Of a stretch of 64,000 nucleotides of DNA, positions 12,350-43,440 are shown piece after piece. Within the stretch, counting starts at the first letter, position 1; each line of letters starts with the position of its first letter. The DNA comes from Sipunculus nudus (Eukaryota > Annelida > Sipuncula > Golfingiida > Sipunculidae): contig CM049313.1 in the NCBI GenBank assembly GCA_026874595.1, forward strand, positions 51,881,659 through 51,945,658, in the 5' to 3' direction. Under the pieces are notes generated by a model. That model made no database searches and had not been told where the DNA came from. It was given only the letters and a program-made list of their open reading frames with translations. The position numbers and the translations under genes are program-made.

Positions 12350-12482
12350 TCTCGGTGGGTCGATGGCAAAAAACAATATTTTGATGCCTGTTGGCCGATG
12401 GTATAAACTAAAATTGATGCCGGTTGGCCGATGGTATGCACTAATACTGATACTGGTCGGCCGATGATATTAAAATTGGGCA
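12350..12482. repeat. Diverged remnant of the 34-bp minisatellite
   Basis: Three to four degenerate units with the same words as the array at 95-4800 (TTGGCCGATGGTATAAACTA, then GGTTGGCCGATGGTATGCAC). The satellite family is therefore dispersed and not confined to one array. Confidence 0.7.
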
Positions 12483-15729: not shown

Positions 15730-17855
15730 CCATGGGCCATGACGCTCAGCTGAATTCAAGGAGTGTTGAACAATGAGCAAAATGACTGCCAGAGTGCTAA
15801 AAAATCATGAATTTTGTGAAGAGTCCTTAGAAATGTCAGGTTTATGAGAAAACTCTCCAAGACAGATTGACATGCCAAATTTCAGGCCAATATCTTGAAC
15901 TACTGCTGAGATATGAGCAATTTTTACCCAAAGCACATGAAGGCATGCAGATGGCACCACAAGTCTTGAGTACAAAATGGAGGAGTCCAAGATCTATGGG
16001 TATGCACAAATTCAGGCCAATACAGCAAATCACGCCTGAGAAAAGGGATTTATTTATTCTACAAAACCGGGGAAAGTATGTGGCCCCACCTGTCTGGTTT
16101 ACGTGAAAACTTTCAAAGATGGATGGACATGCCAAATTTCAGACCAATATCTTGAATCATTCCTGAGATATAAGCGAATTTTCACCAAAAGCAAATATAC
16201 CGATGGACGCCACGCTAAAACGACTGCAGACGGCGCCACCCATCTTGTTAACGAGATGTAGCTGTTGAGGATCTCTGAACATCTTCAATTGTATCCAATA
16301 CATTGAAGAACCACTAAGACAAACAGATGGCAAATGCACAGATGGACACTACACAAAAAGTATTGTAGGTGGCACCACCAGTCGCAATTATGAGATAGAG
16401 AGATCCAAGATCTATGCACATATACATTGAGCCACTCTTGAGATATGGGCTGTCATCTAAAAGACACCCAGATTTGTACTGCACAGAAAGGACTGCTGGT
16501 GGTGCCACCTGTCTTTGTTAGGCACAAAAACATAGGTGAAGGAACAATTATGCTGGGTTTCGGAATGATTGGTCCAAGGGTCTTAGAGGAGTTCTCTGGA
16601 AACTAATGCAGATTTTTTGTATCACATTTTTAATTATTCTGGGGGGTATTTACGAGCCCCATAGCTCGGAGGATATGGGTAACAGAGACTGTATTTCAGA
16701 TTTCCATAGAGACTTTTCATGGACCTCCTTTGATGCCAAATTAGAAGATTCAAGGTCAAGCGGTTATGACTTATGCCCTGTTAACAGATGACAGCTTCTT
16801 TGAAGGTATCAAAAATAGAGAAAAAAATTCGTAAAAATTAGAAAAATACACATGGCGCCACCAGTTTGCAGGAACTGATGGAACACTCCATGATCAATAT
16901 TCATGCAAAGAATAATGGTGATCAAGGAAGTAATTATTCAGATACTGAAGCTTTTGTATCAAATTTTTAATTATTCAGGGGGTACTTTTGAGCCCTATGG
17001 CTCAGCGGATATGAGTAACCGAGACTTAATTTCAGGTTTCCAAAGAGATTTTTCAGGGATCTCTCTGGATGTCAAGTTAGTAGATTTAAGGTGGAATAGT
17101 TACAATTGTGCCTTGTTAATAGAAGAGCACTTCTTTGAAGGTCTCAAAAATAGAAAAATAAAACACTTAAAAATCCATGTGGCACCACCAGTTTGCAGGA
17201 ATGAAACACTCCATGATGAATACCCATGCAAAAATCAACGCACCAATTGTCTAGATAGTGCAGCTTTTGTATCAAATTATTAATTATTCTGACGGGTATT
17301 TATGAGCTCCACAGTTCAGAGGATATGGGTAACAGAGACCTAATTTCAGGTTTCAAAGGGGATATTTCATGGACCTCTCAGGATGTCAAGTTTGAAGATT
17401 CCAGGTCCAGCGGTTACGATTTATGTCTTGTTGACAGATCACAGCTCCTTTGAAAGTATCAAAAATAGAGAAAAAATCGTAACAATTAGAAAAAGTACAA
17501 ATGGCACCACCAGCTTGCAAGAACTGATGGAATACTGCATTATCAATATTCATGCAAAAATCATGGTGATCAATGCAGTAGTTATTCAGATACTTGAGCT
17601 TTTGTATCAAAGCTTTGATTATTCTGAAGAGTACTTATGAGCTCCATAGCTCGAAAAATATGGGTAACAGAGACGTAATTTCAGGTTTCAAAGGAGATTG
17701 TTCATGGACCTCCCTTGATGTCAAGTAAGAAGATTCCTGGTCCAGCGGTAACGATTTGTGCCCTGTTAACGGACGGCCGGACAGACGGACGGCGGACGAA
17801 GAGTGGTCGCTATAGCTCAGATGACTTTCAGTCAGCTGAGCTAAAAACGAAAGAT
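15730..17855 (+). mobile_element. Tandem-array element A (HINE/pearl-like, non-autonomous)
   Basis: The left end has CCATGACGCTCAGCTGAATTC. Next come two different tandem modules: about 15840-16600 with a unit near 257 bp (two copies carry GACATGCCAAATTTCAG) and about 16610-17760 with a unit near 335 bp (anchor GGGTAACAGAGAC at about 16679, 17015, 17329 and 17664; conserved GGTGGCGCCACCAG). A tetramer run of ACGG/ACAG follows at 17769-17800, then the terminal hairpin at 17813-17843. The left-end word GCTCAGCTGA is the inverted copy of the hairpin's right arm. Tandem core, short inverted ends and a 3' stem-loop are known features of non-autonomous Helentrons, and an ACGG tetramer is known from oyster pearl elements. 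No protein is encoded; open frames through the array are artefacts. Confidence 0.75.
17813..17843. other. 3' terminal hairpin of array element A
   Basis: TAGCTCAG, A, TGACT, TTC, AGTCA, G, CTGAGCTA: an outer 8-bp stem, one mismatch, an inner 5-bp stem and a 3-base loop. It is followed by AAAAA. The same hairpin ends element B (20548-20578) and, more diverged, element C (26016-26046). Confidence 0.85.
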
Positions 17856-18106
17856 TTCCGCTGTCTCGGGGGCGTAGATCTAGTCCAGATCACGATTGGT
17901 ATTCTGGTCTAGACCAGATCATAATTTGATCGGGTCTTTGAAAATTTTAACCTGGACTAGGCTAGATTGCCATTTAGATCTGGACAAGGCCAGATCAAGA
18001 TCCTCTTCAAATTAATTGTAGACTAGGGCTCTAGGTCAGTTCTAAACTGACTAATCTTGATTTTATTGGGATCTCGAATACGTAAAAATATAACATATCA
18101 AATTCA

Positions 18107-18138
<32 letters not shown>

Positions 18139-18985
18139 ATAACTATTTAAAAAAAGCATCAGGGGGACAAGCTAAAAGTAAATGATTAGGGGTTCTTGCG
18201 TAGAGCTGGTAGGACTGCTAACGGCACGTACTACACACATATCTTCTTTGGAAATGGATGATCGTGGTCAGCACTTGTTTTTTAGTTATTATTGTAATCG
18301 AAATGAGAAGCGTACATGTCTATCTAATGATAAACTCATCGTCGGTTGACATTTGTGACCGGTTAGTTTCTGTATTAGCCTTAAGAAATCGCCAGGACAT
18401 GCAGGATTCTTGAAACCCTTTTTAGCAATCCCACTGATTACGTATTTAAATGTAGCATTTTATCATTCTCACAGCTAACACATGTTTATACGTATTAAAT
18501 GGCCGCCCGGTTCACACATATTTCAGATCAAGTTAATTGCTATGATGATACGCTGGACACCACTGTCGATCGTTATTCTCATTCAAGGACTACCAACGGG
18601 TCTGCAAAACACAATGCCATTCGTTTCGCTACCAATAAAAACCATGCTCTTTTGTTTACTAGGTGTATTTCGAGAAAGAAAACATGGAAATTATGAAAAG
18701 GCTAAAATATGTAGTGCTTATGTGTCGATGGCTCAATTGGTGTGATTCTGACCGCAAATTGCTCGAGTACGTATAAATGATACCACACTGATGCTCTCGC
18801 GAGCGAACTGCTCATTGGCCTCGGTACGGCGACAGCAACGGCGGAACTGATTAATTTGAGGGTCAAACTGGGCTTAAACCCCTACCTAAAAGCACGCCCT
18901 TTAGGACACCAATCCTCAGAAAAACGTAATCGGTATTTTTTTCTTTTTACATTACAAAAAAAATACACTGATTATATTTGTTATA
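17856..18985. other. Spacer with GATCTAGTCC/GGTCTAGACC motifs; no gene seen
   Basis: From 17870 to 18060 there are repeated palindromic words (TCTAGTCCAGATCACGATTG, GGTCTAGACCAGATCA). A related stretch (GGTCACGATTGGGAACTGAT, then CTAGTC) lies at about 15635-15665, on the other side of element A. The element may therefore have inserted into a local repeat. A TA run lies at about 18108-18132. No coding sequence recognised. Confidence 0.5.
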
Positions 18986-18990
18986 TAAGT

Positions 18991-20580
18991 GTCCCAGGAG
19001 TTATGACGCTCAGCTGACTAGGAAAACATTCACAATTTATCAATGCCACATTTTGTGGGTGGTATCGTCATTCAATATAAATAAGCATGCTATCAGAGGA
19101 TATGAGTAACAGAGACCTAATTTCAAGTTTCCATGGAGACTTTACATGGGCCTCTTTGGATGTAAAGTTAGAAGATTCTAAGTCCAATTTTAACCATTTG
19201 TGCCCTGTTAACAGACAACCAAATCTTTGAAGGTCTCAAAAAAAGACAAACAAAAATAAATAAATAAAAAAAATTCAGGTGGCACCACCAGTCTGCAGGA
19301 ACTGATGGGACACTTCATGATCAATATGCATGTAAAGAATCATGGTGATCAATGCATTAGTTTTTCAGATACTGGCGCTTTTGTAACAAAGAGCTTGAGA
19401 GATATTGGTTACAGAGATCTAATTTCAGGTTCTTCATGAGACTTTCTATGGATCTCCTTGGATGTCAGATTAGAGGATTCTAGATCCAGTGATTAGGATT
19501 TGTTCCCTGTTAACAGAAGACAACATGATCTTTTAAGGTCTCAAAAGTAAAGAATAAAATGTGTAAACATTATAAAAATATCCAGGTGGCACCCGCAGTC
19601 TGCAAAAGTTGGCAAAACTCTTCATGATCAATATCCTTGCAAAAAATCATGGTGATCAATTCATTAGTTGTTCAGATACTAGAGCTTTTGTTTCAAATTT
19701 TCCATTAGTCTGAGCCCCATAGCTTAAAGAATTTGGGGAAACAGAGGCCTAACTTCAGGTTTCCTCAGAGACTTTTGATTGGCCTCCCTGCATGTCAAGA
19801 GAGAGAAGATTTTAGGTCCATTCGTTATGATTTGTGCCCTGTTAACAGATGACCGCATCTTTATAAGAGGTCTAGAAAATAGAGAAAAAAATCATAATAA
19901 TCGAAACGATTCAGGTGGCGCCACCAGACTGCAGAGACTTATGAAACATTTAATGATCAATATCCATGCAAGGGAATCATGGTGATCAACAGTTATTCAG
20001 ATACTGGGCTTTTGTATCAAATTTTCGATTATTTATTTTGTTTGAGGGGGAGGGGTACTTCGGAGCCCCATAGCTCAGCGATTATGGGTAACAGAGACCT
20101 AATTTCAGGTTTCCCCTGAGAATTTTCATGGGCCTCCCTGCATGTCAAGAGAGAAGATTCTAGGTCCAGTCGTTACGAATTGTAAAAATCGAAAAAATAC
20201 AGGTGGCACCACCACTATGCAGAAACTAATAAAAAATTCCGTGATCAATATCCATTCAAAGAATCATGGTGATAAATACAATAGTTATTCAGATACTAGG
20301 CTTTTGTATCAAATTTTCTATTGTTCTTGGGGGTACTTCGGAGCCCCATAGCTCAGAGATTAAGGGTAACAGAGAGCTTATTTCAGGTTTCTAAGGAGAT
20401 TTTTCACGGACCCTTCTAGATATAAAGCTAGAAGATTCCAGATCCAGCAGTTACGTTTTTTGCCTGGTTAAAGGGACTGACAGACGGACTAACAGACGGA
20501 CATACAGACAGGCGGACGAACGGACGCCGGACAAAGGGTTATCGCTTTAGCTCAGATGACTTTCAGTCAGCTGAGCTAAA
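18991..20580 (+). mobile_element. Tandem-array element B
   Basis: The left end GTCCCAGGAGTTATGACGCT continues with CAGCTGACT. Five units follow with the AACAGAGAC-type anchor at about 19108, 19408, 19740, 20090 and 20368. Unit lengths of 278-350 bp show internal deletions. Then a run of ACGG/ACAG tetramers (20476-20530) and the conserved 31-base hairpin at 20548-20578. The same family as A but without the 257-bp module. Non-autonomous; no protein. Confidence 0.75.
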
Positions 20581-21394
20581 AATGGCAAAATATGTTTCAG
20601 TGTAACGTGTCCAAAACTCTAAAAAGGTACTGTGATATTTTCACAAGACCTCAGATAGACCATATAGGAGACAGATTATCATTTCATGTGGATATCTTTT
20701 AAGCACGGCTTGCAGAAATTATCAGGAATATGTGGTCCCTAAAGTCTCTTAAATATCGATCTCAAGTCAGACCTTAATCATCGAAGAAAATCAACGTACC
20801 GGCATGCACTTGCGCCAAGAAATTATACAAGGGTGTTTGTATTTTAACCAGAAAATCTCAGCTTTAAGGAAAATAACCCATCATTAGTTGCAATTTCGCT
20901 ATTTGTAGCTATTCCTTTTTTCGCAACTCTTTTTGGATTATTTTATTTTTTTTATGCTGGTTATGTATGTTCGACCTTTGTGCAATGGAAGAACATCCAC
21001 TTGGTTAGAATAGGGGTTTATGAGGCACGTGACACTTTGTTTTCTAGCTTCTTGATGATTTTTTTTTTGTCTTGCGAACTAATATGACAAACTTCAAAAG
21101 TGTTTGAACTATAATGAGTATAAACTTTGATTCTAATAATGGTGGAAATCCATATTGAAATTTAGCTGAAATTTCAAGTAACCACCCTAAATTAGCTTAT
21201 TTTGTAGTAGAGGAACAAACAAAATAAAAACACATAGGATATTCAGCTGAAGCGGAATTTCAGTGATCATTTTGTATAAGAGTGCATCAAGTGCACGAAA
21301 ACATATATCCTGTATTAATATAGGCGGTGGCCATCGGAAACGTTAAAAGGAGGCCGGGCGCACTAAACACGGGACGAAATCATGTTTTGTGTAT
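20581..21394. other. No gene seen
   Basis: AT-rich DNA between array element B and the decayed LINE. No recognisable feature. Confidence 0.5.
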
Positions 21395-24549: not shown

Positions 24550-26048
24550 TTTGCATTATTTCTGGGGTGCTCAAACATACTCCGAGACTCTGAGAATATA
24601 GGTAACAGAGACCCAGTTTCAGCCTTCTGAGGAGAACTTTAGAGAAACCCTAAGGATGTGAAGTAAGAACCTTCTGGGTCCAAAGTTATGATTTGTGCCC
24701 TACTTTGGTATAACATTTTCAATTATTATAGGATATGCTTATAAGCCCAATAGCTAGGAAAATATGGGTAACAGAGACGTAATTTCTGGTTTCAAAGGAA
24801 ATATTTCAGGGACCTCCATGGATGTCAGTTTAAAAGATTCTATAACCAACGGTTACGAATTGTGCCCTGTTTACAGAAACCATATCTTAAAAGGTCTCAA
24901 GAATAGAAAAATAAAAAAAAAATCATGGTGGCGCCACCAGTCTGCAGGAACTGATAAAACACTACATGATAAATTGCATGCAGAGAATGATGGTGATTGA
25001 TGTGTTGGTTGTTCAGATTATTGAGCTCTTGTATCAAATTTTGCATTATTCTATGGGGTACTTAGGAACAGCTTAACTCGGAAGATATGGGTATAAGAGT
25101 TAATTTCAGGTTACCCCAGAAACTTGTCATAGACCTTCCAGGATTCTAGGTCCAGTCATTACTATTTATGCATGTAAATAGAAGACTGCATATTAAAAGG
25201 TATAAACATGGGGAAAATATCGTAAAATAAATCGAAAAAATACGGGTGGCACCACCAGTCTGCAGAAACTGAAGAAACACTCCTTTGATCAATATCCATG
25301 CAAAGAATCATGGTGATCAATGAACTAGTTGTTCAGATACCTGAGCTTTTGTATCAAATGTTTAAATTATTCTGGGGGTATTTTCGAGCACCATGGATTG
25401 TGCCTCATTAACAGACAGACGGACGATGGACAAAGAGTGATTGCTTTAGCTCAGATGACTTAGAGTCAATAAATTAATAAAAAAATACCAGTGGCGCCAC
25501 CAGTCTGCACTAACTGATGAAATATTCATGATCAACATCATTGCAAAGATTCATGGTGATCAAGGCATAAGTTGTTCAGTTTTTAAGCTTTTGTATCAAA
25601 TTTTCGATTATTCAGAGGGGTACATCTCGAACAATATAAAGGTCTCAAAAACAGAGAAAAAATCGAAAAAATAAAGGTGGCGCCACCAGTCTGCACAAAT
25701 TCATGACACATTGCATAACCAAAATCAATGCAAAGTATCATTGCGATCAATACATTATTTGTTCTGTTACTTGAGCTTAAGTATAAAACATTCCATTGGG
25801 GGGGTGGGGGGGGGGGGGTGGGGGGGGGGGGGGTCTTCTGAGCCCTATAGCTCGGAGGATATGGGTAACAGAGACTAAATTTCAGGTTTTCTAAGGAGAA
25901 TTGTCATAGACCATCCTTGATGTCACGTTGGAAGATTCTAGGTCCAGTGTTACGAATTGTGCCCTGTTCATGGACAGACAGACAGACGGACGACGGACAA
26001 AGAGTGATCGCTATAGCTTAGATGACTTTCAGTCAGCTTAGCTAAAAA
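24550..26048 (+). mobile_element. Tandem-array element C
   Basis: The same family as A and B. Unit anchors (GGGTAACAGAGAC-like) lie at about 24602, 24768, 25090 and 25865, with several units shortened. A partial internal copy of the terminal hairpin and tetramer sequence lies at about 25415-25465, as if one element end had been copied into the array or two elements had fused. The element closes with GACGGACGACGGAC and the hairpin at 26016-26046, whose outer stem has one T-T mismatch. A 36-base G-rich tract interrupts it at 25798-25833. Confidence 0.65.
25798..25833. repeat. Long G-rich tract
   Basis: Thirty-six bases that are all G except for two T. Strong quadruplex potential on this strand; also prone to sequencing and assembly error. 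Confidence 0.9.
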
Positions 26049-27039: not shown

Positions 27040-28008
27040 GCTCCCATGGCGCTCAGATGAATTCAAGCAGCTTTCAACAATGGGTAAATTTACCCAAAAA
27101 ATTGAGTGCTAAAATCATGCATATTTTTTTTATTTTGGTTACACTGACCTTATTCTACATCCAGATGCTACCAATTGTGCACACCTGACTAAAAGCGTGT
27201 TAAAATGATGTTCTTTCAAACAGCTTGCTAGAAATAGGCTACAGTGACGTTATTTCAGGTTTCCAAGGAGATTTTTATGGACCTCCTTGAAAGACATGTA
27301 TGAGGATTCAAGGCCAAATGGATATAATTTGTGGCACATCTGACTCACTGAATGCTTACAAATAATAATTTCTCTCCCAATTTGCAAAATATACGTCCCC
27401 ATGACTGGTACCACCACACTCCATTATCAATATGCATGGAGAGTATCATGGCAACAAATAAATTAATTATTCAGATACTGGACATTTTGTATCAAATTTT
27501 TAATCATGCTGGGGTACTTACGAGCTCCATAGCTCGAAGCATAGGGGTCACATTGAATTATTTTCAGTTTGAAAGGGGATTTTACATGGACCTTCCCGAA
27601 AGTAAGGTAGAAGATTATAGGCCAAATGGATACAATTTATGCCCAATCTGATTTACTGGATGCTTTAAAATCATGTTTTGGCCCGTAATTTAAAAAAAAA
27701 AAATGGTCACGATGATCTTATTTGAGATTTCCAAGGAGATTTTCCATGGACCTCATTGGATGTCAAGTTAGGAGATTCTAGGTCTGACCATAACAATCTG
27801 TGCCCTGCTGACGAACGACCATTTTAATAGAATTTCTCAAAAATAGAGAAAAGAATATGTAAACATAAAAAATACAGGTGTCACCACCAGTCTGCAGAAA
27901 CTGGCGAAACACTTCATTATCGACTTGCATGAAAAAAAATCATGGCTATCAAAGCATTTGTTATTCAGATATTGGAGCTCTTGTATCATATTTTAATTAT
28001 TCTGGACT
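27040..28008 (+). mobile_element. Tandem-array element D, left part
   Basis: The left end CCCATGGCGCTCAGATGAATTCAAG matches the left ends of A and B. Three degenerate units of the array family follow (ATTTTCCATGGACCTC and CACCACCAGTCTGCAG words). The unit breaks off at the word TTTTAATTATTCTGG, where an L1-like LINE begins. The remainder of the element is at 42585-43440. Confidence 0.7.
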
Positions 28009-28100
28009 TCCGGTTGACATGTCGAGGTGATAGGACGGGAGTGTGAGGTCTCCGGAAAGAATTACATAAAAAAGTGAAAAGACCGAGATGATATAGTGTT

Positions 28101-29096
28101 ATGGATACCAGACAGAAAAGAAAACAAAAAGAGCAACCAGAGGGTACGTTGGATAAGTACGTCATTTGTGAAACAGAGACCAGTGGCGCCGGTAAAACTC
28201 GCAAGGCAAGTGTCACTGAGAAAAACATGGCCTCCCGTGCAGACCACAAAGAGAGAGCACCTGAAGGTGAGCGCGAACATGACATTGAGAAAAAAATGAA
28301 TGACTTTAAAGATACGCTGTCTGGGGCAATAGACACTCTCAGAAATTCTTTGACAACTGAAATAGAAGTAAAGTTCAAAGTGTTAAAAGAAGATACAAAC
28401 GCGAATGTGACAAAAATGGTAAAACTTGAACGAAGCCTTGAATTCTCCCAGAAAGAACTTGAAATATATAAAACGCACACAGATGAAGTGACAGAGGAAA
28501 ACAAAAAATTTGAAAGAGGAGTTGGCAAGTACCAAGACATTTCAGAGTAAAATGGAGAAAGATTTTGAAGAAACCGAAAGACGATTGCTTGATCAAATGA
28601 ATGAGACAGAGCGGTATTCAAGAGAATTTAATGTTAGGATTGCCTGGCTTACTGAAACTAATGGAGAAAACTGCGTGAAACTGGTGGCTCAAATAATATC
28701 TGAAAAAGAACTGATGGAAAGAAAATCGGTGGAGGAAATAGAGAACCTGATTGAGAATGTCCATCGTACATGAAAACGACTACCAAATAAGCAGAGGCAA
28801 ATAATTGCTAAATTTGTGAAAAGAACTGATAGAAATACATTTGTGAAGAATGCAAAGAGTCAGCTGAATAGAGCAGAAGGCGCAAAAATAAAATGTTCGA
28901 AGACCTTAGAAAAGCAGATTATGAGCTAAAGAAAAGAGCGCAACCGCAGATTGAGGCTGCCTATAATGACCAGAAGAAAGCCGAGTTCCGCCGAGGGAAA
29001 CTAATAATAAATGGACACCTAGTGGCAATACAAGGCAAAGCCGGAGCGCGACTCGAAATGATAAGCCAGCGGAACATGGCCCAAGGCCATGATTGA
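28101..29096 (+). pseudogene. L1/Tx1-like ORF1 (RNA-binding coiled-coil protein), broken
   Basis: The ATG at 28101 opens a frame of 149 codons that is basic at first (MDTRQKRKQKEQ) and then forms a long charged coiled coil (about residues 60-145). After a frameshift near 28530 the protein continues with a segment like the L1 ORF1 RRM (ETERYSREFNVRIAWL) to 28773. After a stop and a further shift it ends with the C-terminal domain (RQIIAKFVKRTDRNTF, then FEDLRKADYELKKRAQPQIE and FRRGKLIINGHLVAIQGKAG). In L1-type elements this protein binds the element RNA as a trimer and acts as a chaperone. At least two frameshifts and one stop make it inactive. Confidence 0.8.
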
Positions 29097-29717
29097 AGAA
29101 TCGCCCAGAGACTGAACGGCCAGGGACCACACGCATGAATGCCCATGACTGCAGCTCCACCTGAGACGAGTTTGGGTGCAATGTTTTTGGACTTTGTTTC
29201 TTTATTTTCAGAGTCGTAAAATTGACTCGGTTCAATATTTAATAATAAAGACTGAAATAATAGATACAATAACAGTTTATTTTTCAGATCAATAAGAAGA
29301 CTTGAAAGTGCTGTAAAATAGTTATTTAAAATGTGTTTCATCTTGTTCTGTTTAATTGTGTTTAATACCGGTGATCAGATCGAGGCCTCGCTGGTAATGT
29401 TTAACCGGATTACAGTTTTTGCCGTTTACTGTGTGGATAGTGACCGAGCCTCTGTTGTCGCTCATTACCAAGTGGTAGGTGAATTGTGAAAGACTCGGTG
29501 GTAGGTACTATCATATTTGTGTGCGTTATAGTAATATGTCATTTATGTTGATGTACAGGATACAACCATGAGTATTGTACGGGCATCATTTAGTATGTCA
29601 TTAATTAATTCACCTTTTGGGATATCCACCGTCACCTTTTATACGAAGATTCGATCATACCTAACGTTATTGGTAAAAAATAATATGTCATGAAGATATA
29701 TTCCTTGAATTTACAGT
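29097..29717 (+). other. Inter-ORF region of the L1-like LINE
   Basis: About 600 bases separate the end of ORF1 from the first recognisable endonuclease residues. No coding signal. This is long for an L1 intergenic spacer and may include decayed ORF sequence or a small unrecognised insertion. Confidence 0.45.
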
Positions 29718-31610
29718 AGCGACCCTAAATATCATAGGGATAAAAATACAAAGAAAAAGGAGGACAGTGTTTACATGTATGAGCCGACGAAAGGCGAATG
29801 TTATATTTCTAAAAGAGACGTATAGTAGTAAATCATGTGAAGTACAATGGCGTAATGAGTGGGGAGGTCATATTCTATATAACCATGGAAGTAATCATAG
29901 TAGAGGTGTTGCTGTTTTATTAAAACCGGGGTTAGATTATAAGATTATAAGAATTTATAGTGATGAAGAAGGAAGAATACTCATAGTAGAAAATTAATTC
30001 AAGATCAAGTTATATATTTCTGTAATTTATATGCCCCGAATCAAGAAAGTAAACAAATTGCTTTCTTTAAAAAGGTAAAACACAAGCTTATAGAATTTGG
30101 AGTGGATGAAGATAAAAATCTTATTATAGAGGTTGATTTTAATATTGTATTTGGTAATATTGATAAGGATGGAGGAAGAGAACAAATTAAAGTAAAGGTA
30201 GTAGATATAGTGAACGATCTGTCAAGCTGTTTTAATTTAATTGATATATGGAGAACTCGGAATGAAACAACAAAAATGTTTACCTGGCATCAAAAAGAAC
30301 CTGAAATTCATTGTAGATTAAACATATATTTCATTTCTAGTGATTTACAAGATCTTGTAAATAATTGTGACATTATCCTAACTGCAAAGACAGATCACTC
30401 TGGTGTAGTTTTGAAATTTGAAGATACGAAGCAGACAACAAGAGGGAATGGGTACTGGAAATTTAACAATGATTTATTAAATGACCCTCAATATGTTGGT
30501 ATGATAGAAAATAAAATTGATGAATGGTGTAAAGAATTGGCAAGTACAAATTGCAGTGAAAATGGGAATTATTAAAATATTTTATTAGAAAAGAAACCAT
30601 AGTTTACTCAAAGAAAATTAAGAAGAAAATGAATGATCATTATGATCAATTAGCTTCAAGACTAAAATATTTAGAGAAAGAAAACACAGATATTGAAGAA
30701 TACTTCAAGCTAAAAGAAACACTGAACTGTTTAGATCTTAAAAAGGCTGAAGGGACAATTATTAGAGCCAGAGTTAGATGGAGAGAAAGGGGAGAGAGGA
30801 GTTCAAGGTATTTTTATCAGCTAGAGAAAAGAAATACAGTAAAGAAACATATTAGAAAACGTAAATCACAGGACACTGAAGACACTATATCTGATAATAC
30901 AGAAATACTATCAACAGTAAAATCATTTTATGAAAATTTGTACAAAAGTAGATATCGAAAAAATGTTTTATCTGAAGGTCAAATAGTTTTTGATGACCCA
31001 AGTCTGGTCAAAGTTTACGATGAACAAAAAATAATATGTGAAGGTCTACTTACTCTCGATGAGTGTGAAAAGGTAGTTAAATCCACAAAAAATAATAAAT
31101 CCCCTGGAAATGATGGTTTATCCATATAATTTTATAAATGTTTTTGGAAAAGGGTGGGGCCATTGTTACTTGATTCATTCAATGATTCATACCATGTAGG
31201 GGAAATGTCATCATCTCAAAGACAGTCAGTTATAACACTCCTAGAAAAAAAAAGAGAAAGACAGATTACTTATTAAATACTTGCGCCCAATTTCTTTATT
31301 GAATAATGATTATAAAATTGCATCCAAAGCAATAGCAGAAAGAATACATATTTACAAGCATGGCTTCGTAAAAGGGAGATATATAGGAGAAGCAGTCAGG
31401 ACAGTACTTGATACTGTGGAATATTTAAAGATGAGTAGACACCCAGGATTATTAGTATGCGTTGATTTTGAAAAAGCTTATGATTCATTAGAATGGGAAA
31501 TTATGTTAAATGTATTAAAATAATAAAAAAAAATGATTTGATATCCTGGGTAAAAACATTTTACAATAATATCGCTTCATGTATAACAAAAAATGGATAT
31601 AGTCCATGGA
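29718..31610 (+). pseudogene. L1/Tx1-like ORF2, N-terminal part (endonuclease and RT fingers to motif A)
   Basis: An apurinic-type endonuclease reads as ATLNIIGIK, then NVIFLKETYSSKSCE (catalytic Glu region), WGGHILYNHGSNHSRGVAVL, NLYAPNQES, EVDFN in place of the usual GGDFN, and TDHSGVV (catalytic Asp-His). After the NNKSPGNDGL motif the RT starts with RPISLLNNDYKIASKAIAER (31283-31340), then VCVDFEKAYDSLEW (motif A, about 31457-31498) and SWVKTFYNN. The piece ends at NGYSPW, where the transposon inserted. Frames change near 30000, 30580, 31130 and 31520, with stops at about 29995, 30573 and 31127. In intact relatives this protein nicks the target and primes reverse transcription. Confidence 0.85.
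31603..31610. repeat. Left target-site duplication of the long-arm DNA transposon
   Basis: TCCATGGA on the left, against CCCATGGA at 40676-40683 on the right: 8 bases with one mismatch. The exact boundary can slide by one or two bases, so 7-9 bp is the safe statement. Both copies lie in the LINE RT coding sequence. Confidence 0.65.
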
Positions 31611-33000
31611 CTATGAGGGGTCACCGTGCACCCCCTCTGGGATTTTATGACATATGTATATTTAGATCCCTAAGTATGTCCAATTAATGAATTAAGATGT
31701 TATTATTATTTTGGGATACACTACCCTTTAAGGCCATAAAAAGACAACCGCGTCCTTACGCGCGCACCCGCGGACAGGTAGCCTTCATAAGGAGGTAGGG
31801 GTATGTAAATGCTTATAGCTCGTTTAATATTTGACATATTCACTTCAAATAAACTGCATTATGTTTGCAAATAGTGGGGAAAAGTCACTGACAACAATTT
31901 TTATATAAATGAATTATGTATTTTTGTTGATCAAGCAATTAATCACTATACTTATAAAATATCCAAAAAAGGAAATAAAAGTTAACAGATTTTTCTTTCA
32001 TTTTTTCCTACAGTAGTTTATTTTCGAGATGATGTTGCATTTCTAAATTTCTAATGCATTAATACATTAGTTCCTGACATTCCTACAATTTATGAGGATA
32101 AAATAATGAATATTTGACCATATACACCTGCAATAAATAACCAATTGTTAATTCTATTTTATGGTATCCCTTGTTTTTAAGATGGATCTGGTGTTCCATG
32201 TTCCTCTCCAGATGCATTGATTAAACTGTGATGCTTCGTTGATACTCTGAATTGTTATTTGTCTGAACTTGAAGGTGTTTATTGGTTTTAAAAATAAAGA
32301 AAACCCTTTCTTGAGCCATTTTTACATGTAATTATTATACAAAAATAATCATATTTAGGCCAATCTTTTGGAAGGGTCACTGTGCACCCCTCTTTATGAT
32401 ATAGGTATTTTTTAGATACCCAAATATGTCCAATTAATGAATTAAGATGTTTAAATTGATTATTTTAGGATACACTACCCTTTTATGGAACTGAGAGAGA
32501 GAGACAACCGCGTCATTACGCACAACAACCGCGTACAGGTAGCCTTGTTACGGGGGAAGGGGTATAACAATTTTTATAGCTCGCTTAATATTTGACATAT
32601 TTACTTAAAATAAACTGTATTGTATATACAGACAGTCAGAAAAAGTCACTGATAGATATAATGACATATATTTCTCACAAGTGACGAAGAAATTAATTAT
32701 GATATTAATAAAACACCCTGAAGAAATTTCACAGAACTCTCCGCTGTTGATGATTTTACAAGACATTTTGACATTTCTGAAGTTCTAGTTTATGAATTTA
32801 TTATTCTGTTTTGATCACACTTTTTATAACAGGTATACGACGTGTTCCGTTGTTCCTCTTTCGATGTACCTCACCGTGACGCTTCCCTAATACCATAAAT
32901 GGTCATTGTTTTGAAACTAAGGGCATAAACACTAGTAAACTCTTTATCAAGATAATTTCGAATATATAAATGTTTAAGGATACAAAACTTTCTCCGAGTA
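31611..33000 (+). repeat. Left inverted arm: two tandem ~757-bp units
   Basis: Unit 1 starts GAGGGGTCACCGTGCACCCC (31615) and unit 2 GAAGGGTCACTGTGCACCCC (32371), 756 bases apart. Both contain GACAACCGCGTC near ACAGGTAGCCTT, then GCTCGTTTAATATTTGACAT or a close variant, and, 550-600 bases in, a TGTTCCTCTC-like word followed by a TGATGCTTC-like word. Unit 2 is visibly more diverged and shortened at its inner end. Confidence 0.85.
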
Positions 33001-35399
33001 TAAGGACTAACCCGTGTTATGTTATCCCTTCCGAAATGTTGTCCTCATGACCTTATACCTTGTAAATCCTTTCTGTCATATTGTGTCATCCTTTGGCTAA
33101 TTTCAAAATGGGGTTATGTACATTGTGTAATACCTAATATTGAAGCGTCTGTCTTTATTGCACATTGTCCCTTCGTTTACTATCTTTAAGTATCAATTCG
33201 TATAAAGTGTATATAAATGACACTGCAAATAACACGCATATCTCTGCAAATAACAAGGATCACCAGAGATGGATCCTGGTCAAAATTGGATGAGTGGTCC
33301 GTGAACCAAGGAACTATAATAAATTTAGCTGAGAGTAATGGTTCACTTTTCCCCAACTGATTGCTTGCATCACAGTTGAGTTCAGATTACCAGAACATAA
33401 GCGGCTAAAAATAGTCACAACTGTGCATGCGAGTGGGATAAACTTTCTCCATATTCAGAAAATTGCACCTTTCTCTTAGTACCTTTGACTGACGATGGTC
33501 TCTTCCCCTCCTAGAACAAAAGTATGATCTCTTAATACCGAATATTCCTTCAAACAAATCGTATTATGTTGATCACGGTAACCGGTTTATATTCCTGGCG
33601 AGTATAAAATGAAGACATATACTGGGCTTTTCAAGATTAAGAGGGTGAATAACCACTTGTAAACAAAAGTCATTCAAGTAAAAATATGATGATACTCTAA
33701 TGATCAATACATTTAATATCATGAAAGACATTGACCATTGTGACACCTCGATTCTGGTACATGGATCGAGCTGAGACCTAATGCAGCATTAAAGCTGCCA
33801 GAATTATAAAGTAGAAAGCCTATCTTAATCTTTAGAAAAATTTCAATTCCCATTAAAATGTAAACCTAACTGAATGTCTAAGCAGGTTTGCATTGAAAAG
33901 AATGTCCTGAACTGATGGTAACATTTTACTGATAAGCCTAAGATGAATTCCCAGCAGTGACCATATATATTATTTTTTTTCAGCACTGAATATTATTTTG
34001 AATGAAAAATTGTAATGGTACTTCCGGAGAGGGTTTAAATATAAAGTATTGAGTACTCCCCAGAAGCCATCGTGTGCATATTAGCGGGTGTTTATGCAGG
34101 GACTGTAATGAAACACTGACATTTTTTATATCACCTATATGCTGAATAATATTTAACTGCACCATAAACTAGGAAGCGGATTCTCATCTATGTTTCCTGA
34201 CAGTCGAATGCTTTAAAAATGTGAGGCTTTCACTTCCTGCTTGTATACATAGCCTTGAATGATTAAGCATTAACCCTTTACTGTTTACAAGCCATTAAAG
34301 AGCACTCAAAATGGGCAACTAGAATGCAATGATATGTATAGATTCTTTCAGGACAGAAATATTGCATATTATTATAAAGTTTCAATGATTTTCAATAACT
34401 GTTGACCTGTTGAAAATTTGATAGAGAAACAAAAAGCTTGAAAAGTTATTGCTGTTAGTGTAAATTTTAAGAATTTGTCGGTAATCTAAAATAAATGTAA
34501 ACAGGAAAGGGTTAAATTTTAGATTGGGAGTTCCATAACCTTGACCTCTCCCGGAGAAATAAGTGGTCCATTTTTCATTAACTTGACAAAAAAATACATG
34601 TTCGTTAAATTTATATAATAACAGAAGTAAGGACTGAAATCTAAATGATTCTTCATAAAAACACGTATTTTGAGGATTGGCATAGGAAGGCGGGTGTACA
34701 GGATTAACTGAGCCAAATGTATTCGTGTCATGCCCACCCTTATATGTACTTGTAAGGATATGGTTCTTTTACAAAATTGTTAGCAGGCATTTTAATCTGG
34801 CTTCATGATTCCAATGACAGCTCCGCCATTCATGTTGAATCGTTCTGGGGTTATAGGTCTTAAAGTCTGTCATGATTATAAACACGATCTATCTTCTAAA
34901 GGCAACATGATATCCATAGTGTTCCATTTTATAATTTCAGAAGTTAGCACTGAAACTGCAGAATGCCTCTTCATAAATAATGAATTATTGAAGACTAAAA
35001 TGCATAGGAGCTAGAGGATGAATCCACTCGAATTTTTATGGGGGTAAATATAAAACCCATTTCTTTTGATATGGTGTCAAAACAGGTGAAATCTAATGCC
35101 ATTAATATATGTCTACCACACCCATTTACAGAAGCTGAGTTGTACCGAAACAAAATAAAATATATAGCACACACATATATACACTACACTTGGATGCAGA
35201 CGTCAGAGACTGTATATTTATTAGTAATCTCAATGGTATCTGTGCCCTTATACTATGTCTGGTGTAAGGGCACAGGCTTTGTCCATTTCTGTTTAGAACC
35301 CATAGCTTCGTTTCTTTAGTCAATTTTGGTAATTTTTACAGTCAGAAATCATACGTATGTTCTAAAATAGATTCTTCCCATTGATTAACACAAATATGG
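33001..35399. other. Interior of the long-arm transposon; no gene seen
   Basis: About 2.4 kb of AT-rich DNA between the left arm and the L2-like LINE. No transposase domain, zinc finger or long open frame is recognisable on either strand. It may be a decayed internal region or further unidentified insertion. Confidence 0.5.
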
Positions 35400-38300
35400 T
35401 CCCCTCCCTGTAAGGTACTGTCCCTGTAATACCATGCCCTTCCATTAACTACGACCGCATTGAAAAGAAATCACAAAAAGTGTTCACCCTGATCCATCAA
35501 TATACATTTAGATTAGAATATGTGATTTGTTTAAAATTTAAACTATCAAGTACGTTTCCTTGCAAGAAAATCTGAAAGCGACATGGTATGGCATTTAAAT
35601 ATAACAAGGCAACTAATGACCCTGTCATACCCAGTGACCTATAGTTCTGTTTGTAAACACTGTCATGAATTCCTTGAGGAATTTGTTGCACACGGCAAGA
35701 ACTGCAGTGGCTGGTTCTGTTTGTCCTAAACATCGACCGGTACAGAACTTGGTGAAACAATGCAGAAATCGGTATGTTTATAACAGACACCAACTACTTG
35801 GAATCTCTGGTTGTCCCATTCAAAGATCTGTTCGTAAGACTTTATTTTCATTGAACCTCTGGAGTAAATCTGTCAAATACAATCCTTAATTTACTCTCAA
35901 CAGCGGCGTGAATAAGAACAATCTTATCTATATCAGACGATCTGTCATACCACAGAATCTTAGTGAAAGTAATTCAGAGACTTTGAAACTCTGTCAATGG
36001 AATGCACGTTCAATCCGAAACAAGACCCATATATTTGCGGACCATATTCTTGAGAAGGACTATGATATCGCAGCCTTGACTGAGACATGGTTGGGTGCAA
36101 ATAACCAGGTTGTTGTAAGCGAGCTGACTCCACCTGGATATAAGCTTGTGAGTATTCTAAGGACAAAATCAAGTGGCGGAGGTGTTGGTCTTTTGCATAA
36201 AGCTGAGTAAGAAATAAAACTAAAAGAACATGAGACCAAGGCATCTTTTGAGATGATAGATGCTGCTATCAAGTGTGAACGTAGTTGGATAAAATTGATA
36301 GTCATATACAGACCGCCACCATCCAAACAAATAAATCAAGTAATGTACAGTTCCTATCAGAATTCTCAGACTGTTTGGAGGAATGGAGACTCTCTCAGTC
36401 GCCTATTGTGATCGTTGGAGATTTTAATTACCACATCAATAAGGCAGACGGAAGTGCTGACCGCTTCAGTGGAATGCTATCTTCGATGGGATTTCACCAA
36501 CATGTTCGTGATGCGAAACATAAGCATGGTAATGTTCTGGACTTGATAATTACTCGGTCCTATGAGGACCTTGTCTCAGACATTAAAGTCACATCTTTAG
36601 GCGTTTCAGACCATAATTTGGTATCCTGCAGTCTGGATATACCAAAACCAAGCGTTCAAAGCAAAACTGTGAAATTTCGGAAGCTAACATCAATTGATCT
36701 TGAAGCTCTGTCCAGGGATATTTCTGATAGATATAAAATATGTGAAACAAAGGGTTTGGAGTTTAATGTTACTCAGTATAATTGTGTTGTGAAATCTGTA
36801 CTGGATGACCATGCTCCGCTTCTGACTAAAGACATATTAATACGTGGGAATTCACCGTGGTATGTGCCTGACATTAAGATTGCTAAATGTAAGTTGCGCA
36901 AATTAGAGAGACAGTGGAGAGCATCCAAATTAACAGTTCATCATGAAATGTATGTTAAACACAGACAGGAGGAAAGGTAGCAGAATGTGGTGATGACTCA
37001 AAGGCTCTTTTTTCAATAGTGAATAACCTTCTTGGCAAACGTTCACAATCAGAGATGCCAAGTTCCTCAGTGACAGCAGAGGCTTTTAGCCATTTCTTCA
37101 CAAATAAAGTTGCTTCAGTTCGCAATAAGTTGCTAGAACAGCGCTGTGCTTTCCCTGTAGAAACGGCTAAGGCCACTCCTGCAGATTGCACACTAGATAC
37201 TTTCATACCCCCATCTGAAGAGGAGATCTCTCAAAGCTTACAGCGCTCACCAGCTAAGCACTGTGAACTGGACCCTTTTCCAACTTGGCTAGTTAAGCAA
37301 TGTGCGGATGTTTTTATTCCAATTTTTTGTCAATTGTGTCATATGTCTTTTTACAATTGTGAAGTTCCAGCATCTTTGAACTCGGCCATTGTAACCCCCA
37401 TACTGAAGAAAAGCAGTCTTGATGCACACGTTTTGAAGCACTATCGGCCAATATCTAACTTTTCGTTCCTTACTAAAGTGTTAGAAAAGATCGTTGCCAC
37501 TCGTATCACTTCATACATGAAGGAAAACCATTTGTATGAAGACCAACAGTCTGCATATAGACCTTTCATAGCACTGAAACATGCCTGCTCAAAGTATATA
37601 ACGATCTTCTCTGGGCTATGGACTCCCAACAAGTATCCATTCTCATACTATTGGATTTATCTGCTGCCTTTGATGTTGTGGATCATCAGCTCCTGTTACA
37701 ACGGTTGTCCACCAGGCTTGGAATAAGTGGGGATGCCTTGCAATGGATCAGGTCATACCTGTGCAATCGAAGTCAGTGTATCAGTGTTGCAGGTCATAAG
37801 TCTTCTCCAACTGAGATCACCAACGGTGTTCCACAAGGTTCTGTGCTGGGGCCTCTGTTTTTTACAATTTACACATTACCACTTGGTGAATTGGTACGAC
37901 AGCATGGAATGGATTATCATTTTTATGCTGATGACAGTCAAATTTATGTATCATTTAAACCAGAATCAAAGGTTCCTATTTTTACCATTGAAACATGCTT
38001 GCATGCCATAGGTGTTTGGATGTGTCAGAATCTGCTGAAACTCAATGCTGATAAAACTGAGGTTCTGATTATCGGTACAAACCAGCAAAAGTAAAAAATT
38101 CAGTTGAAAACTCTTAACATATTTGACTCTGTAGTTGTGCCAACAAACTGTGCTATGAACCTGGGGGTTGTTTTTGACCAAGGGCTTTGCCTTGATAAGC
38201 ATGTAAATAATATTTGTAGTTTGGCTTTTTACCACCTGCGTAATATAGCTAGGATAAAGGGTTTCCTAACTCAAGATTCACAAATAACATTAATTCATGC

Positions 38301-38930
38301 GTTCATCAGTTCAAGGATTGACTGTTCCAACTCTTTGCTATGTGGTCTTCCTAGCAAGTTATAGGACCGGCTTCAGAGAGTGCAGAATGCAGCTGCTAGG
38401 CTTGTAACTGGTGCCAAGAAGCGCGACCACATTACACCTCTACTTAAAGAACTCCATTGGCTCCCGGTGCGACAGCGCATTGATTTTAAAATTTTATTAT
38501 TAGTATACAAAGCCATAAATGGTCAATCGCCTATTTACATTAGGAACCTCTTAACTTTTTATGTTCCAGTCAGGCAGCTTAGGTCATCTGACCAAGGGCT
38601 TTTAGTGATTCCTAAAGCACGAAGTGAGATGTGTCGTTCGAGAGCTTTCTCAGCTGTGGCACCAAGGTTGTGGAATGAACTTCCGCACTCAATCAGAGCT
38701 TCACCATCTTTAGCTTCGTTTAAAAGAAATCTTAAAACTTACCTTTTTATATTAGCTTTTGGTAGTTCTTAGGAATTAGGGTTTAACTTTTAGGAATCTT
38801 TGTTTTAGTAGGAATCTACATTTTATGTGTTAGAAAAAACTGTGCTTTGTGTCGTGTAAAGCGCTTTTGATAACTATTTTGTTGAATTAACGCTATATAA
38901 ATTAAATATATTATTATTATTTATAATATA
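35400..38930 (+). mobile_element. L2-like (CR1 group) LINE inside the transposon
   Basis: A nearly complete L2-type ORF2 (35908-38772) followed by a short 3' UTR. It ends in AACGCTATATAAATTAAATA and an ATT repeat (38900-38920), the GCTATATAAA plus trinucleotide tail typical of L2/CR1-like elements. The 5' boundary is uncertain; an open frame at 35665-35889 (basic, Arg/His rich) may be 5' UTR or a remnant ORF1. It lies wholly between the inverted arms and is the innermost level of the nest. Confidence 0.8.
35908..38772 (+). pseudogene. L2-like ORF2: endonuclease and reverse transcriptase, broken
   Basis: The endonuclease shows LKLCQWNARSIRNK, DIAALTETWL (catalytic Glu), VIVGDFNYHINK and VSDHNLVSC (catalytic His region). 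The RT shows HYRPISNFSFLTKVLEKIVA, motif A LILLDLSAAFDVVDHQLL, motif B NGVPQGSVLGPLFF and motif C FYADDSQIYV. The C-terminus is the conserved L2/CR1 segment with LQRVQNAAARLVTGAKK, LHWLPVRQRIDFKILLLVYK and APRLWNELPHSIR. Frame changes occur near 36210-36285, 36960-37019 and 37570-37620, with stops at about 36208, 38092 and 38362. All catalytic motifs are still readable, so decay is moderate. Intact relatives nick DNA and copy their own RNA at the nick. Confidence 0.9.
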
Positions 38931-39289
38931 ATTGTAACAAAAATATGAAAATCAAATAAATTAATACCAAAAAAAAAATCAAGCAACACTAAAGTATGTT
39001 ATTAAGCTGTATACACCGTAATTATTGATTTTGAATTATAATTGAAACTGTTGCACATGCCTTCCTGTTCTTTCTCCTTTAAGATTCACAGTAAGTAAAT
39101 TGTTAATATTTGATTTTCCATTTGCGGACATATTCTTCACAATACTTAATATGGATTGATTTCCTATCTATTAGAAATTTCATATTATTATTATTATTTT
39201 TGATTATTTATGTGTTATATATTGTTCCAGAGAGGGCTCATATTATTATTAAAGCCAATAAACACAATAAAGCTCAGGAGAATAATTAC

Positions 39290-40675
39290 AAATTTTAATA
39301 TTGTATTTATGGTTTTTGTGGGAAGCATCACAGTGAAAAATTAATTACATCTCGACAGGAACATTGGACACCATATTCATCTTATATACAAAGGGTATAT
39401 AGAATGGACAATGGTTCATTCACTGCAGGTGTATATGGTCAAATATTTATAGTTTTATCCTCAGAAGTAATGTATTGATGCAGTAGGAATTAAGAAATGT
39501 AACATCATCCCGAAAATGAACTACTGTTGGGAAAAATGATAGAAAAAGGTGTTAAATTCAATTTTCTTAAAAAATATAGTGATTATTTGCTTAATCAACA
39601 ACATACATAATACATTCATATGATTATTGTTATCAGTGACTTTTCACCACAATTTGCAAAGATAATGCAGTTTATTTGAAGTGAACATGTCAAATATTAA
39701 GCGAGCTGAAAGCATTTACATACCCCTGCCCCCTTATCAAGGCTACCTGTCTACGGGTGCGCGCGTAATGACGCGGTTGTCTTTTAATGTTTTAAAAGGG
39801 CAGTGTGTCCCAAAATAAACAGTGTTAACATGTTAATTCATAAACTGGACATACTTGGGGATCTAAAATTTCCTATGTAATAAAACCCCAGAGGAGGTGC
39901 ACGGTGGCCCTTCTTATATAATGGTAAAAATATGATTATTTTTGTATAATTATTATATGTTAAAAATGGTTCAAGAAAGGGTTTCCAATATTTTTAAAAC
40001 CAATAGACAACTTCAGATTCTGAAAAATAACAATTCATAGTATCAAGAAATCCTCGCAGTGAAAATTAAGGCATCTGGACAGGAGCATTGAACACCATAT
40101 CTTTCTTATAAACAAGGGGTACCATAACATAGAATTAACAATGGGTCATTCATTGCAGGTGTATATGGTCAAATATTCATTATTTTATCCTCAGAAATTG
40201 TAGGAATGTCAGGAACTAATGTATTTATGCAGTAGAAATTTAGAAGTGCGACATCTTCTCGAAAATAAACTAATGTTGGAAAAATGGGAAAAAAAGCTGT
40301 TAATTTCCATTTTCTTTCTGATATTTTATACGTATAGTTATTAATTGCTTCATCAACAAAAATACATAATACATTTATATAAAAATTGTTGTCAGTGACT
40401 TTCCCCAATATTTGCAAACATAATGCAGTTCATTTGAAGTGAATATGTCAAATATTAAGCGAGCTATAAGCATTTACATACCCCTACCTCCTTATCAAGG
40501 CTACCTGTCCGCGGGTGCGCGCGTAAAGACGCGGTTGTCTTTTAATGGCCTTAAAGGGTAGTGTATCCCAAAATAATCAATGGTAACATCTTAATTCATT
40601 AATTGGACATACTTGGGGATCTAAATATACATATGTCATAAAATCCCAGAGGGGGTGCACGGTGACCCCTCCTAG
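39290..40675 (-). repeat. Right inverted arm: two tandem ~757-bp units
   Basis: Mirror image of the left arm. The outer unit ends GGGGGTGCACGGTGACCCCT (40651-40670) and the inner unit ends with GTGCACGGTGGCCCTTC (about 39897-39913), about 758 bases apart. Words such as AAATATTAAGCGAGCT and GCGGTTGTCTTTTAATG occur in both. The inner right unit is closer to the outer units than the inner left unit is. Confidence 0.85.
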
Positions 40676-42359
40676 CCCATGGACTAATACAGTTTAGGCT
40701 ATTTCCAAGTTGAGAGAGGTGTTCGACAAGGGGATCCCCTCTCAACATTCTTATTTATCTTAGCATTAGAACCCTAAGCTGAAGCAATAAGACAAAATAA
40801 TCAGATACAGGACATTAAGGTAAATAAAGAAATAGAGCTAAAGTGTATATTGTATGCGGATGATTTGACAGCTATAATGAAAGATGGTGAATCTGCAGAC
40901 AAATTATTAAGTCTGATTGAAGCCTTTTCCAGAGTTTCAGGCCTTAAAATTAACCAAGAAAAATCAGAAGCCATGTGGCTTGGTTCAAAGACAAATTGTA
41001 AGGAACAACCAATAAATGTTAACTGGAAGACATCTGTCAAAATTCTAGGAAATAATATCTCACATGATCAAAATAAAACGAGAGATCAGAATATCCAACC
41101 AAAACTAAAAGATGCATAGGAAACACTTAATGCTTGGAGAAGTATAAATTTAACTTTAAATGGAAGGATTATGTTAGCAAAGTCATTGGGTTATTCTAAG
41201 TGTTAATATGTAGCATCAGTAGTAGCTATACCTGAAAATTATATAAGGGAAGTTGACCGTTTGCTTTTTTAAATTCATATGGAAAGGGAAAAAAAAGAGG
41301 ACGGATAAAAAGAAGGATTTTAATTGATGAATATGAACAAGGTGGACAGAAAATGGTTAATGTAAAATGTATGATTGAGGCCCAAAGGATAAATTGGGTG
41401 AAAAGATATTTATATGGAAATAATATCCCATGGAAATCCCTAGTGGATTCGCTGTGTAATCATTATTGAGGGTTTTACATGAACTACCATCCTTTTATAG
41501 AGACATTTTTAAAATATGGAAAACTGTCAGAGAAGAAAAAGATCAGGAAATTATTTGGAATAATTACAACATAACTTTTAATGGGAAACCTTTGTTAATT
41601 GAAAATATGAAAAATGCAGGTTTACTTTTTTTTTATATCAGATTTTGTAAAACAAGGTAAAATAATACCTTTTCTAGAGTGGAGGAATAGAGGAGTTAAA
41701 GTGAAATATTACATGTCTTGGAGAAGTAAAATTAGTCAGGTATGGAAAGCATTGCGGTTTTTAAAAACTGCTGACTGTTCTAACAATGATGAATGGATTT
41801 TGAAATACTCCAGGACAAAGCTCTCAGAGGTTACCTCAAAGCAATTGTATAAAATTTTATTAGATAACATCCCAAGGGACATGGGTAAAGGTGAAAAAAG
41901 CAATAAGAAATTAATGATATACAAGACGGTCAGTGGACAGCTATATATAAATTACTCTGGATAACTACAAACGATAAAAAACTGCAAGATTTCCCATACA
42001 AGATAATCCATAGGATATTGGTTTTGAATGATTGGCTTTATAAATGTAAATTTATTGAAAATGAAAAATGCTCATTCTGTACCAATGAGAGAGAGACATT
42101 AGAACATTTCATATATGAGTGTGAAATAAGCAGACAATTTTGGGAAGATTTAGAAAATCATTGCAAGTTTTCAACAGTGAAAGATTGGAGTCGAGATGTA
42201 AAAAAAATATTATTTTGTATTATTAGAGATATAAATTTAAACAAGATCATAAATATCATTATTTTGCTTGGTAAAAAGTACTTGTATGAGTGCAGGTATC
42301 ATGGAAAAAAAACAAATGTCACAATATTTATGCATAAGTTAAACGGTATCAAGACATAG
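40676..42359 (+). pseudogene. L1/Tx1-like ORF2, C-terminal part (RT motif B to zinc motif)
   Basis: The LINE resumes after the transposon with YFQVERGVRQGDPLSTFLFI (motif B, about 40702-40760), then CILYADDLTAIM (motif C, about 40846-40881) and SGLKINQEKSEAMWLGSK. An L1-type distal region follows (WRSINLTLNGRIMLAKSLGY, RILIDEYEQGGQKMVNVKCM, WVKRYLYGNNIPWKSLV). Near the end is CSFCTNERETLEHFIYEC, the CX2C...HX4C motif of LINE RTs. Frames change near 41120, 41280, 41460, 41640 and 41970 and stops are present, so it is inactive. Joined to 29718-31610 it completes the usual domain order of an L1/Tx1 ORF2. Confidence 0.85.
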
Positions 42360-42584: not shown

Positions 42585-43440
42585 ATATTTTGGGGTACTT
42601 ACCAGCAAGCTAACAGGATATGGGTAACAGAGACCTAACATTAGATTTCCAAGGAGATTTTCATGGACCACCCAGGATGTCAAGTTAAGAGATTCTAGCC
42701 CATGCAATTTGTGTCCCGTTAACGAACAACCGCCTTATTTGAAGGTCTCAAAAATAAAAAAAAAAAAATGCATACAAATTCGATAAAGGTTGGCAGCCCT
42801 CACGAAACACTTAATGATCTTTATGCATGCAAATACTCATGGCGATCAATGTATGAGTAATTCAGATACTGGGGCTTTAATATCAACTCTCTAATTATCT
42901 GGAGGGTTCTAATGAGCCCCATAACTCGGAGAATATGTGTAACAGAGACCTGATTTCAGGTTTCCAAAGAGATTTTTCATGGACCTCCCTAGAGATCAAA
43001 GTAGAAGTTTCTAGGTGGCACCACTTGTCAGCAGGTATTGATGGAACACTTCATGATCAATATCCATGCGAAAAAATTATGGCGATCAATGCATTAGTTA
43101 TTCAGATATTTAAGCTTTTGTGTCAAATTTTCAGTTGTTCTGTGGGGTACTCACGAGCGCCATAGCTCGGAGGATATTGATAACAGAGATCTAATTTCAG
43201 AGTTCAAAGGAAATTTTTGAGGACCCTTTCCGGATGTACTATAACAGTTTTTAGTTTTGACAGTTGCGATTTGTGCCCTGTAAACGAACGACCGCTTCAT
43301 GTGAAGGTCTAAAAAGAATAGAAAAATACGTAAAATTTCTAAAAAAAAAACCCCAGAAAATTCTAGGTTTTACGGTTACGATTTGTGCCCCGTTAACGGA
43401 CGGACGCACAGACAATCGGACGGCATAACATTTATTAAAC
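42585..43440 (+). mobile_element. Tandem-array element D, right part
   Basis: The array resumes with GGGGTACTTACCAGC and GGATATGGGTAACAGAGACC (about 42610), the continuation of the unit interrupted at 28008. Two to three units follow, then GTTAACGGACGGACGCACAG (43392-43411). The canonical terminal hairpin is missing; the element fades out at about 43440. Confidence 0.7.

Follow-up and report, generated by a model that had tools for sequence, protein, structure and literature searches.

The question raised by this locus is whether a DNA transposon can carry its terminal region twice in each arm, as a property of a whole family. The locus lies in a window of 64 kb (64,000 nucleotides) from Sipunculus nudus, contig CM049313.1, in which an earlier note had placed, at 31611..40675, a DNA transposon whose inverted arms are each a tandem pair of units. 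Our results indicate that the element probably represents a non-autonomous cut-and-paste DNA transposon family with two tandem units per arm, in which the terminus was duplicated once and the outer pair of units has been kept alike.

The inverted arms (31590-32669 against 40695-39618) are 85% identical over 1093 bp (BLASTN of the region against the window, E 0). Within each arm there is also a direct pair, 31615-31891/32371-32652 at 78% in the left arm and 39189-39916/39931-40674 at 77% over 767 bp in the right (BLASTN). A unit profile was built from the outer left (L1), outer right (R1) and inner right (R2) units and searched over the window, where it matched outer left 31597-32365, inner left 32370-32803 and 32812-32977, outer right 40688-39919 and inner right 39929-39185. 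These are exactly four units, the next match having an E value of 5.6, and the tandem pair in each arm is thus confirmed, except that the inner left unit (L2) is incomplete. It lacks about 90 bp (profile positions 477-568), and its identity to the other units is 77-85% in the first ~300 columns and far lower beyond.

Over the first 375 columns of their alignment the units diverge pairwise by 4-26%, unlike an assembly duplication. The inner left unit is here 74-77% identical to the others, and the inner right unit is identical to the two outer units at 300/355 and 304/358 positions. The outer pair L1/R1 agrees at 345/360 positions in these columns as compared to 339/390 in the remainder (Fisher p 1.5e-5), which implies that the outermost part of the outer units is more alike. 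Among 28 informative sites, counted from the 599 ungapped columns of the four window units, 22 support L1R1|L2R2, one joins units of the same arm and five support the third pairing. This pattern is evidence against the two arms having been duplicated separately, whether recently or locally at this site.

To see the family as a whole, the assembly of the same genome (1.43 Gb) was searched. The 33-base end was found at 230 genomic places with at most 3 mismatches, and the exact 15-base tip at 138; the reversed controls gave 0 in both cases. With one outer unit as query there were 460 candidates, 40 of which were scored, giving 83 matches, and most matched outer units had a second unit within about 10 bp. 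Such a query does not select for doubled arms, but it does select copies close to that of the window. An inner unit was present behind the outer one in 29 of the 30 best-matching arms, the window's two included, the exception being copy L028. Furthermore, 20 longer stretches were fetched, three of which (L052, L057, L059) have a single end and were set aside, and the 17 others (3.1 to 6.0 kb long) together with the window make 18 two-ended elements with the interior of one family. Units per arm were listed for these 18 copies: two units, some of them partial, are present in 32 of the 36 arms, and a single unit in one arm each of L050, L053, L056 and L061. The two counts, 29/30 and 32/36, share many arms. 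The earlier note had itself raised the doubt that other copies might have single units, this case being a private local duplication or an assembly artefact. Two-unit arms are common to the family, which, together with the tree split between outer and inner units described below, excludes both, and we give this explanation practically no weight.

The ends were re-mapped by a scan of boundary options, in which the boundaries were placed where a target duplication and the inverted ends fitted best together. The element stands as first described, but its ends lie 11 bp further out on each side, at 31600 and 40686, with a 3-bp target duplication ATA and ends TAGTCCATGG. When the flanks are joined without the element, the frame CITKNGYSLGYFQVERGVRQGDPLS of a host long interspersed nuclear element (LINE) reads through the junction without interruption and meets one stop beyond it, and the joined flanks match RVT_1 (Pfam, E 6e-17, the later stop entered as X). 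The host is a LINE whose reverse-transcriptase frame is interrupted by the element. The length of 9.1 kb includes a 3.3-kb LINE inserted in the interior, which is absent from the corresponding point in L042, L043 and L051; the element is ~5.8 kb without it, and the family at its longest measures ~5.7 kb.

Target duplications could be listed for the 17 copies with both tips readable (L054, with its left tip missing, was left out), and an exact 3-bp duplication was found in 14 of them: ATA three times, TTG, CTA and TTA twice each, and AAT, ATT, TTT, AAA and TGG once. They are mostly AT-rich, and that of L049 can also be read as 4 bp. A 3-bp match is expected by chance in about 2% of copies, as estimated from base composition. 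A TA target, which was first suspected, was overturned by these duplications. Inverted ends with a fixed 3-bp duplication, and the reopened host frame in the window, are what a terminal inverted repeat (cut-and-paste) DNA transposon leaves. The claim of a DNA transposon whose arms each have the end region twice is thus supported, by the duplications, by the many genomic places of the ends and by the doubled arms.

Each arm consists of a 15-bp tip, an outer unit of ~745 bp and an inner unit. Four copies of the end motif had been described, which is right for GARGGGYCACYGTGCAC; the 15-bp terminus (TAGTCCATGGACTAT / TAGTCCATGGGCTAG), which begins TAGTCC, is preserved in the window at the outer ends alone, the inner units having it in degenerate form. 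In the window copy alone the likeness of the inner tip to the outer tip is weak (p 0.02-0.17), and the view taken from this copy, that the inner units are without any tip, was overturned by the junctions of all copies. In 33 junction rows (19 left, 14 right) the majority junction before the inner units is the same in both arms, ...AATCATATT-TAAGCCATAATATAA-GAAGGG; the right junction of the window copy has 2 additional bases. In the majority sequence from 31 of the 33 junction rows, the 15 bases preceding GAAGGG match the outer tip at 8 of 15 positions (p 0.0045 by shuffling and 0.012 against 15-mers of the window), and G to A accounts for four of the seven mismatches. We read this degenerate inner tip as a relic end, duplicated along with the unit.

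A degenerate tip at the right place on the inner units is also what would be expected of an old end if the origin was nested, that is, if two outer units alone once formed a hairpin-shaped relative, an older element bounded by the inner units jumped into its centre, and it was this composite that multiplied. The inner pair being more diverged than the outer pair would fit this as well. However, an insertion duplicating 3 bp into a palindrome should, by reasoning, put the inner flanks one base out of step, and the majority junction is in step. Nor is there a hairpin of ~1.5 kb among the 29 tip pairs listed, 22 of which span 3.5-5.8 kb, six 7.1-11.4 kb and one 64 bp; the pairs were drawn from 132 tips (the first 100 places of the 230 and of the 138), and a pair is not necessarily one element. 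A nested origin appears unlikely to us.

The tree of units took in the 66 of 73 units that were long enough, with 36 outer and 29 inner labelled rows; the single left unit of L056 was kept apart from these labels, and elements were oriented left and right by their interiors. All 36 outer units fall on one side of one branch (support 100/99). Because of this split, and of the two-unit arms throughout the family, the doubling goes further back than the copies sampled. The one-unit arms (4/36) could suggest that the end was duplicated in tandem again and again, independently in each lineage, an ongoing growth as in foldback arms with tandem repeats. In the left arm of L056, moreover, an inner-type unit follows the outer tip with no outer unit between them, and this copy has an exact duplication of TTA; a unit can therefore be lost with the end retained, and losses, at the least, alter the number of units. 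For gain, the single split largely refutes such repeated duplication, and no three-unit arm was seen among the 36 arms of the 18 elements or the 30 best arms, so that we regard it as very improbable.

The two kinds of unit also differ in how they have mixed between the arms. Left/right labels change 15 times (at most 17) over the 36 outer rows, as compared to 2 times over the 29 inner rows. The median tree distance within an element is 0.080 for the outer pair (15 elements) and 0.31 for the inner pair (10 elements), and between outer left and outer right units of different elements it is 0.109 (308 pairs). Exchange or conversion between the arms has affected the outer units and hardly the inner ones.

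Several observations weigh against a history with one duplication and a steadily maintained outer pair. Of 15 elements, only 6 have outer units that are each other's closest neighbours, and homogenisation must therefore be incomplete or date far back. The inner units of each side are non-monophyletic, with 3 changes apiece for left and right against all other rows, and tests for a single clade, run with L046, L048, L049, L050 and L056 misoriented, rejected it for both sides. Those of the right side branch off as a grade leading to the outer units, and the left inner unit of L058 groups among right-type inner units, which implies that extra conversion events are needed; the grade probably reflects occasional conversion by the neighbouring unit. 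The single left unit of L056, outermost by position, falls among inner units. Three of the 17 copies (L043, L060, L061) have no matching 3-bp duplication. Finally, mobilisation in trans is only inferred, since no relative bearing a transposase was found.

The most probable course is a single tandem duplication of the terminal ~750 bp, after which repair or gene conversion would have transferred the enlarged arm to the opposite side of the element, as suggested by the same junction in both arms. Afterwards only the outer pair, used by the transposase, would be kept alike between the arms. The inner pair would be released to become a spare or relic end, which may still carry putative binding sites, and a transposase not seen here would act in trans. 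A further-reaching proposal is that the functional ends have moved outward: the whole terminus duplicated, the outer pair working and kept alike, and the inner pair set free, its left and right lineages being a record of the former ends; the superfamily would lie outside those compared here. This we put forward only tentatively, as somewhat doubtful in its full extent.

No transposase was found between the arms, either in the window interior or in the elements examined. The six read-through frames of the window interior gave no transposase against Pfam (best E 0.03, to a non-transposase), and no stop-to-stop frame exceeds 132 amino acids in the 17 fetched two-ended elements, these frames being judged by length. 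For DDE_Tnp_4, the transposase family looked for as a sign of PIF/Harbinger, 150 of 701 candidates were scored; none of these lies inside the 132 listed tips, and one lies 6.3 kb outside. The inner stretches of four larger tip pairs held no recognised transposase, the pairs at C10:39.57 and C5:17.43 Mb falling outside this reading. As candidates for an autonomous copy, the pair at C10:4.96 Mb contains a LINE instead, the pair on C3 family sequence and satellite-like repeats, the stretch on C9 ordinary family sequence, and the pair on C2, of which 1 kb was read, unrelated sequence without long frames. Arm motifs of 18-20 bases gave isolated matches in viral_contigs and genome_contigs, with at most 29 aligned bases and E no better than 0.005 (one pattern gave none); plasmids, phages and Rfam gave no match. 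The letters of the end motif were not found in a text search of the literature (Repbase lies outside its scope).

The structure works like that of foldback elements, with long inverted arms containing tandem repeats. Repeats within long arms are already known from foldback transposons, and the doubled terminus is a variation on these. Galileo of Drosophila (P superfamily) likewise has long inverted arms, 18-1250 bp, and in its subfamily F two or three tandem repeats of ~210 bp lie inside the arm, one copy having two per arm (PMC3573991). Galileo arms also lengthen by recruiting neighbouring sequence, explained by repair copying arm onto arm (PMC3573991), and the tandem repeats of its arms carry extra transposase-binding sites (PMC3573991, PMC4079207). 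In contrast to the family described here, the flanking duplications of Galileo are 7 bp, its repeat lies inside the arm and is not one of nearly the whole terminus, and its transposase is known, whereas no coding copy was seen among our elements.

Tetris, a foldback of Drosophila virilis, is non-autonomous with long arms and ~220-bp tandem repeats, and in this resembles the doubled arms. Its authors suggest that these repeats come from part of the outer arm domain, and they found no transposase copy (PMC4079207). It differs in its duplications of 8-10 bp and in a variable repeat number growing into satellite arrays, as compared to two large units here (PMC4079207). Tm1 of Meloidogyne (Mutator/foldback) has composite inverted arms with internal repeats too, but its duplications are of 8-10 bp, mostly 9, the internal repeats are ~14 bp, and some members encode a putative transposase (PMC3169594). 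Since the duplication here is 3 bp and not 7-10 bp, neither Galileo membership nor that of the Mutator-type foldbacks (Tetris, Tm1) is supported. The suggestion of foldback-type growth is thus right as a way of working and not as membership of these groups.

Target duplications of 3 bp, as here, are known from PIF/Harbinger, the related PHIS groups and CACTA (PMC4482050, PMC10741241). The duplicated targets are TWA in Harbinger, ANT in Pangu, CWG in NuwaI and TNA in NuwaII (PMC4482050); only two of our 14 duplications are TTA and none is TAA, which does not fit the TWA of PIF/Harbinger. CACTA elements end in CACTA or CACTG (PMC10741241), and the tip TAGTCCATGGGCTAG, with TAGTCC, does not. We assign the family to no superfamily.

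The family shows within one genome which part of an arm stays alike between the ends, as outer units are mixed and inner units keep their side. It offers a natural test of two things, the distance over which transposase or the machinery of repair acts within foldback arms, and whether an element becomes more mobile by having spare inner ends.

Table 1. Parts of the element and of its host in the window
Feature	Position	Strand	Basis or remark
Whole element	31600..40686	.	9087 bp; duplication/inverted-end fit and reopened host frame
Left target-site duplication ATA	31597..31599	.	Boundary fit, family comparison
Left terminal tip TAGTCCATGGACTAT	31600..31614	+	Commonest family form is TAGTCCATGGGCTAG
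Outer left unit (L1)	31615..32355	+	
Degenerate tip before inner left unit	32356..32370	+	
Inner left unit (L2), ~90 bp gone internally	32371..32977	+	nhmmer, two matches
Interior, left part	32978..35628	.	Longest stop-to-stop frame 128 amino acids; no transposase in Pfam
Inserted non-long-terminal-repeat retrotransposon	35629..38923	+	Weak Exo_endo_phos, clear RVT_1, ATT tail
Interior, right part	38924..39184	.	
Inner right unit (R2), full length	39185..39913	-	
Degenerate tip before inner right unit	39914..39928	-	
Outer right unit (R1)	39929..40671	-	
Right terminal tip TAGTCCATGGGCTAG	40672..40686	-	
Right target-site duplication ATA	40687..40689	.	Boundary fit, family comparison
Host LINE 5' part	28092..31599	+	152-amino-acid frame (no significant Pfam match), then frames ending in first part of RVT_1; 28092 is not the LINE's established 5' end
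Host LINE 3' part	40690..42359	+	Rest of RVT_1, then zf-RVT

Some further observations were made on single copies. The shortest among the tip pairs listed, L065 93-156 (G000:C1:69013992-69014055), is a 64-bp miniature of two ends only, flanked on both sides by TTC or TTCT depending on the boundary drawn. In L043 (around 990 and 6693) 50 bp of flank are perfectly repeated, inverted, on the opposite side, without a direct duplication, as if the element lay in the centre of a palindrome or the target had been rearranged. Three element ends on G000:C2 (87688099, 87749324, 87810432) are ~61 kb apart, as if in a tandem segmental duplication. L062 990-3000 (G000:C10:4963200-4966200) is a copy with a LINE-like insert, with frames of 199 and 468 amino acids running off the stretch, and is the second case of a LINE inside the interior of this family.

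Diverged satellite-like repeats of ~300-340 bp flank the host LINE (window 16615-20582, 24703-26048, 27241-28006 and 42592-43424), and with repeats on both its sides the LINE may sit in a satellite array. On contig C3 a further copy of the element has the same repeat in its vicinity (L063 2125-3000). A 34-bp minisatellite (AACAAAATATTGGTGACGGTGGGCCGATGGTAT and variants) forms several clusters in the window, at 100-774, 1685-2300, 4616-4763 and 12381-12470, near a frame of 491 amino acids with RVT_1 (3187-4662, minus strand).

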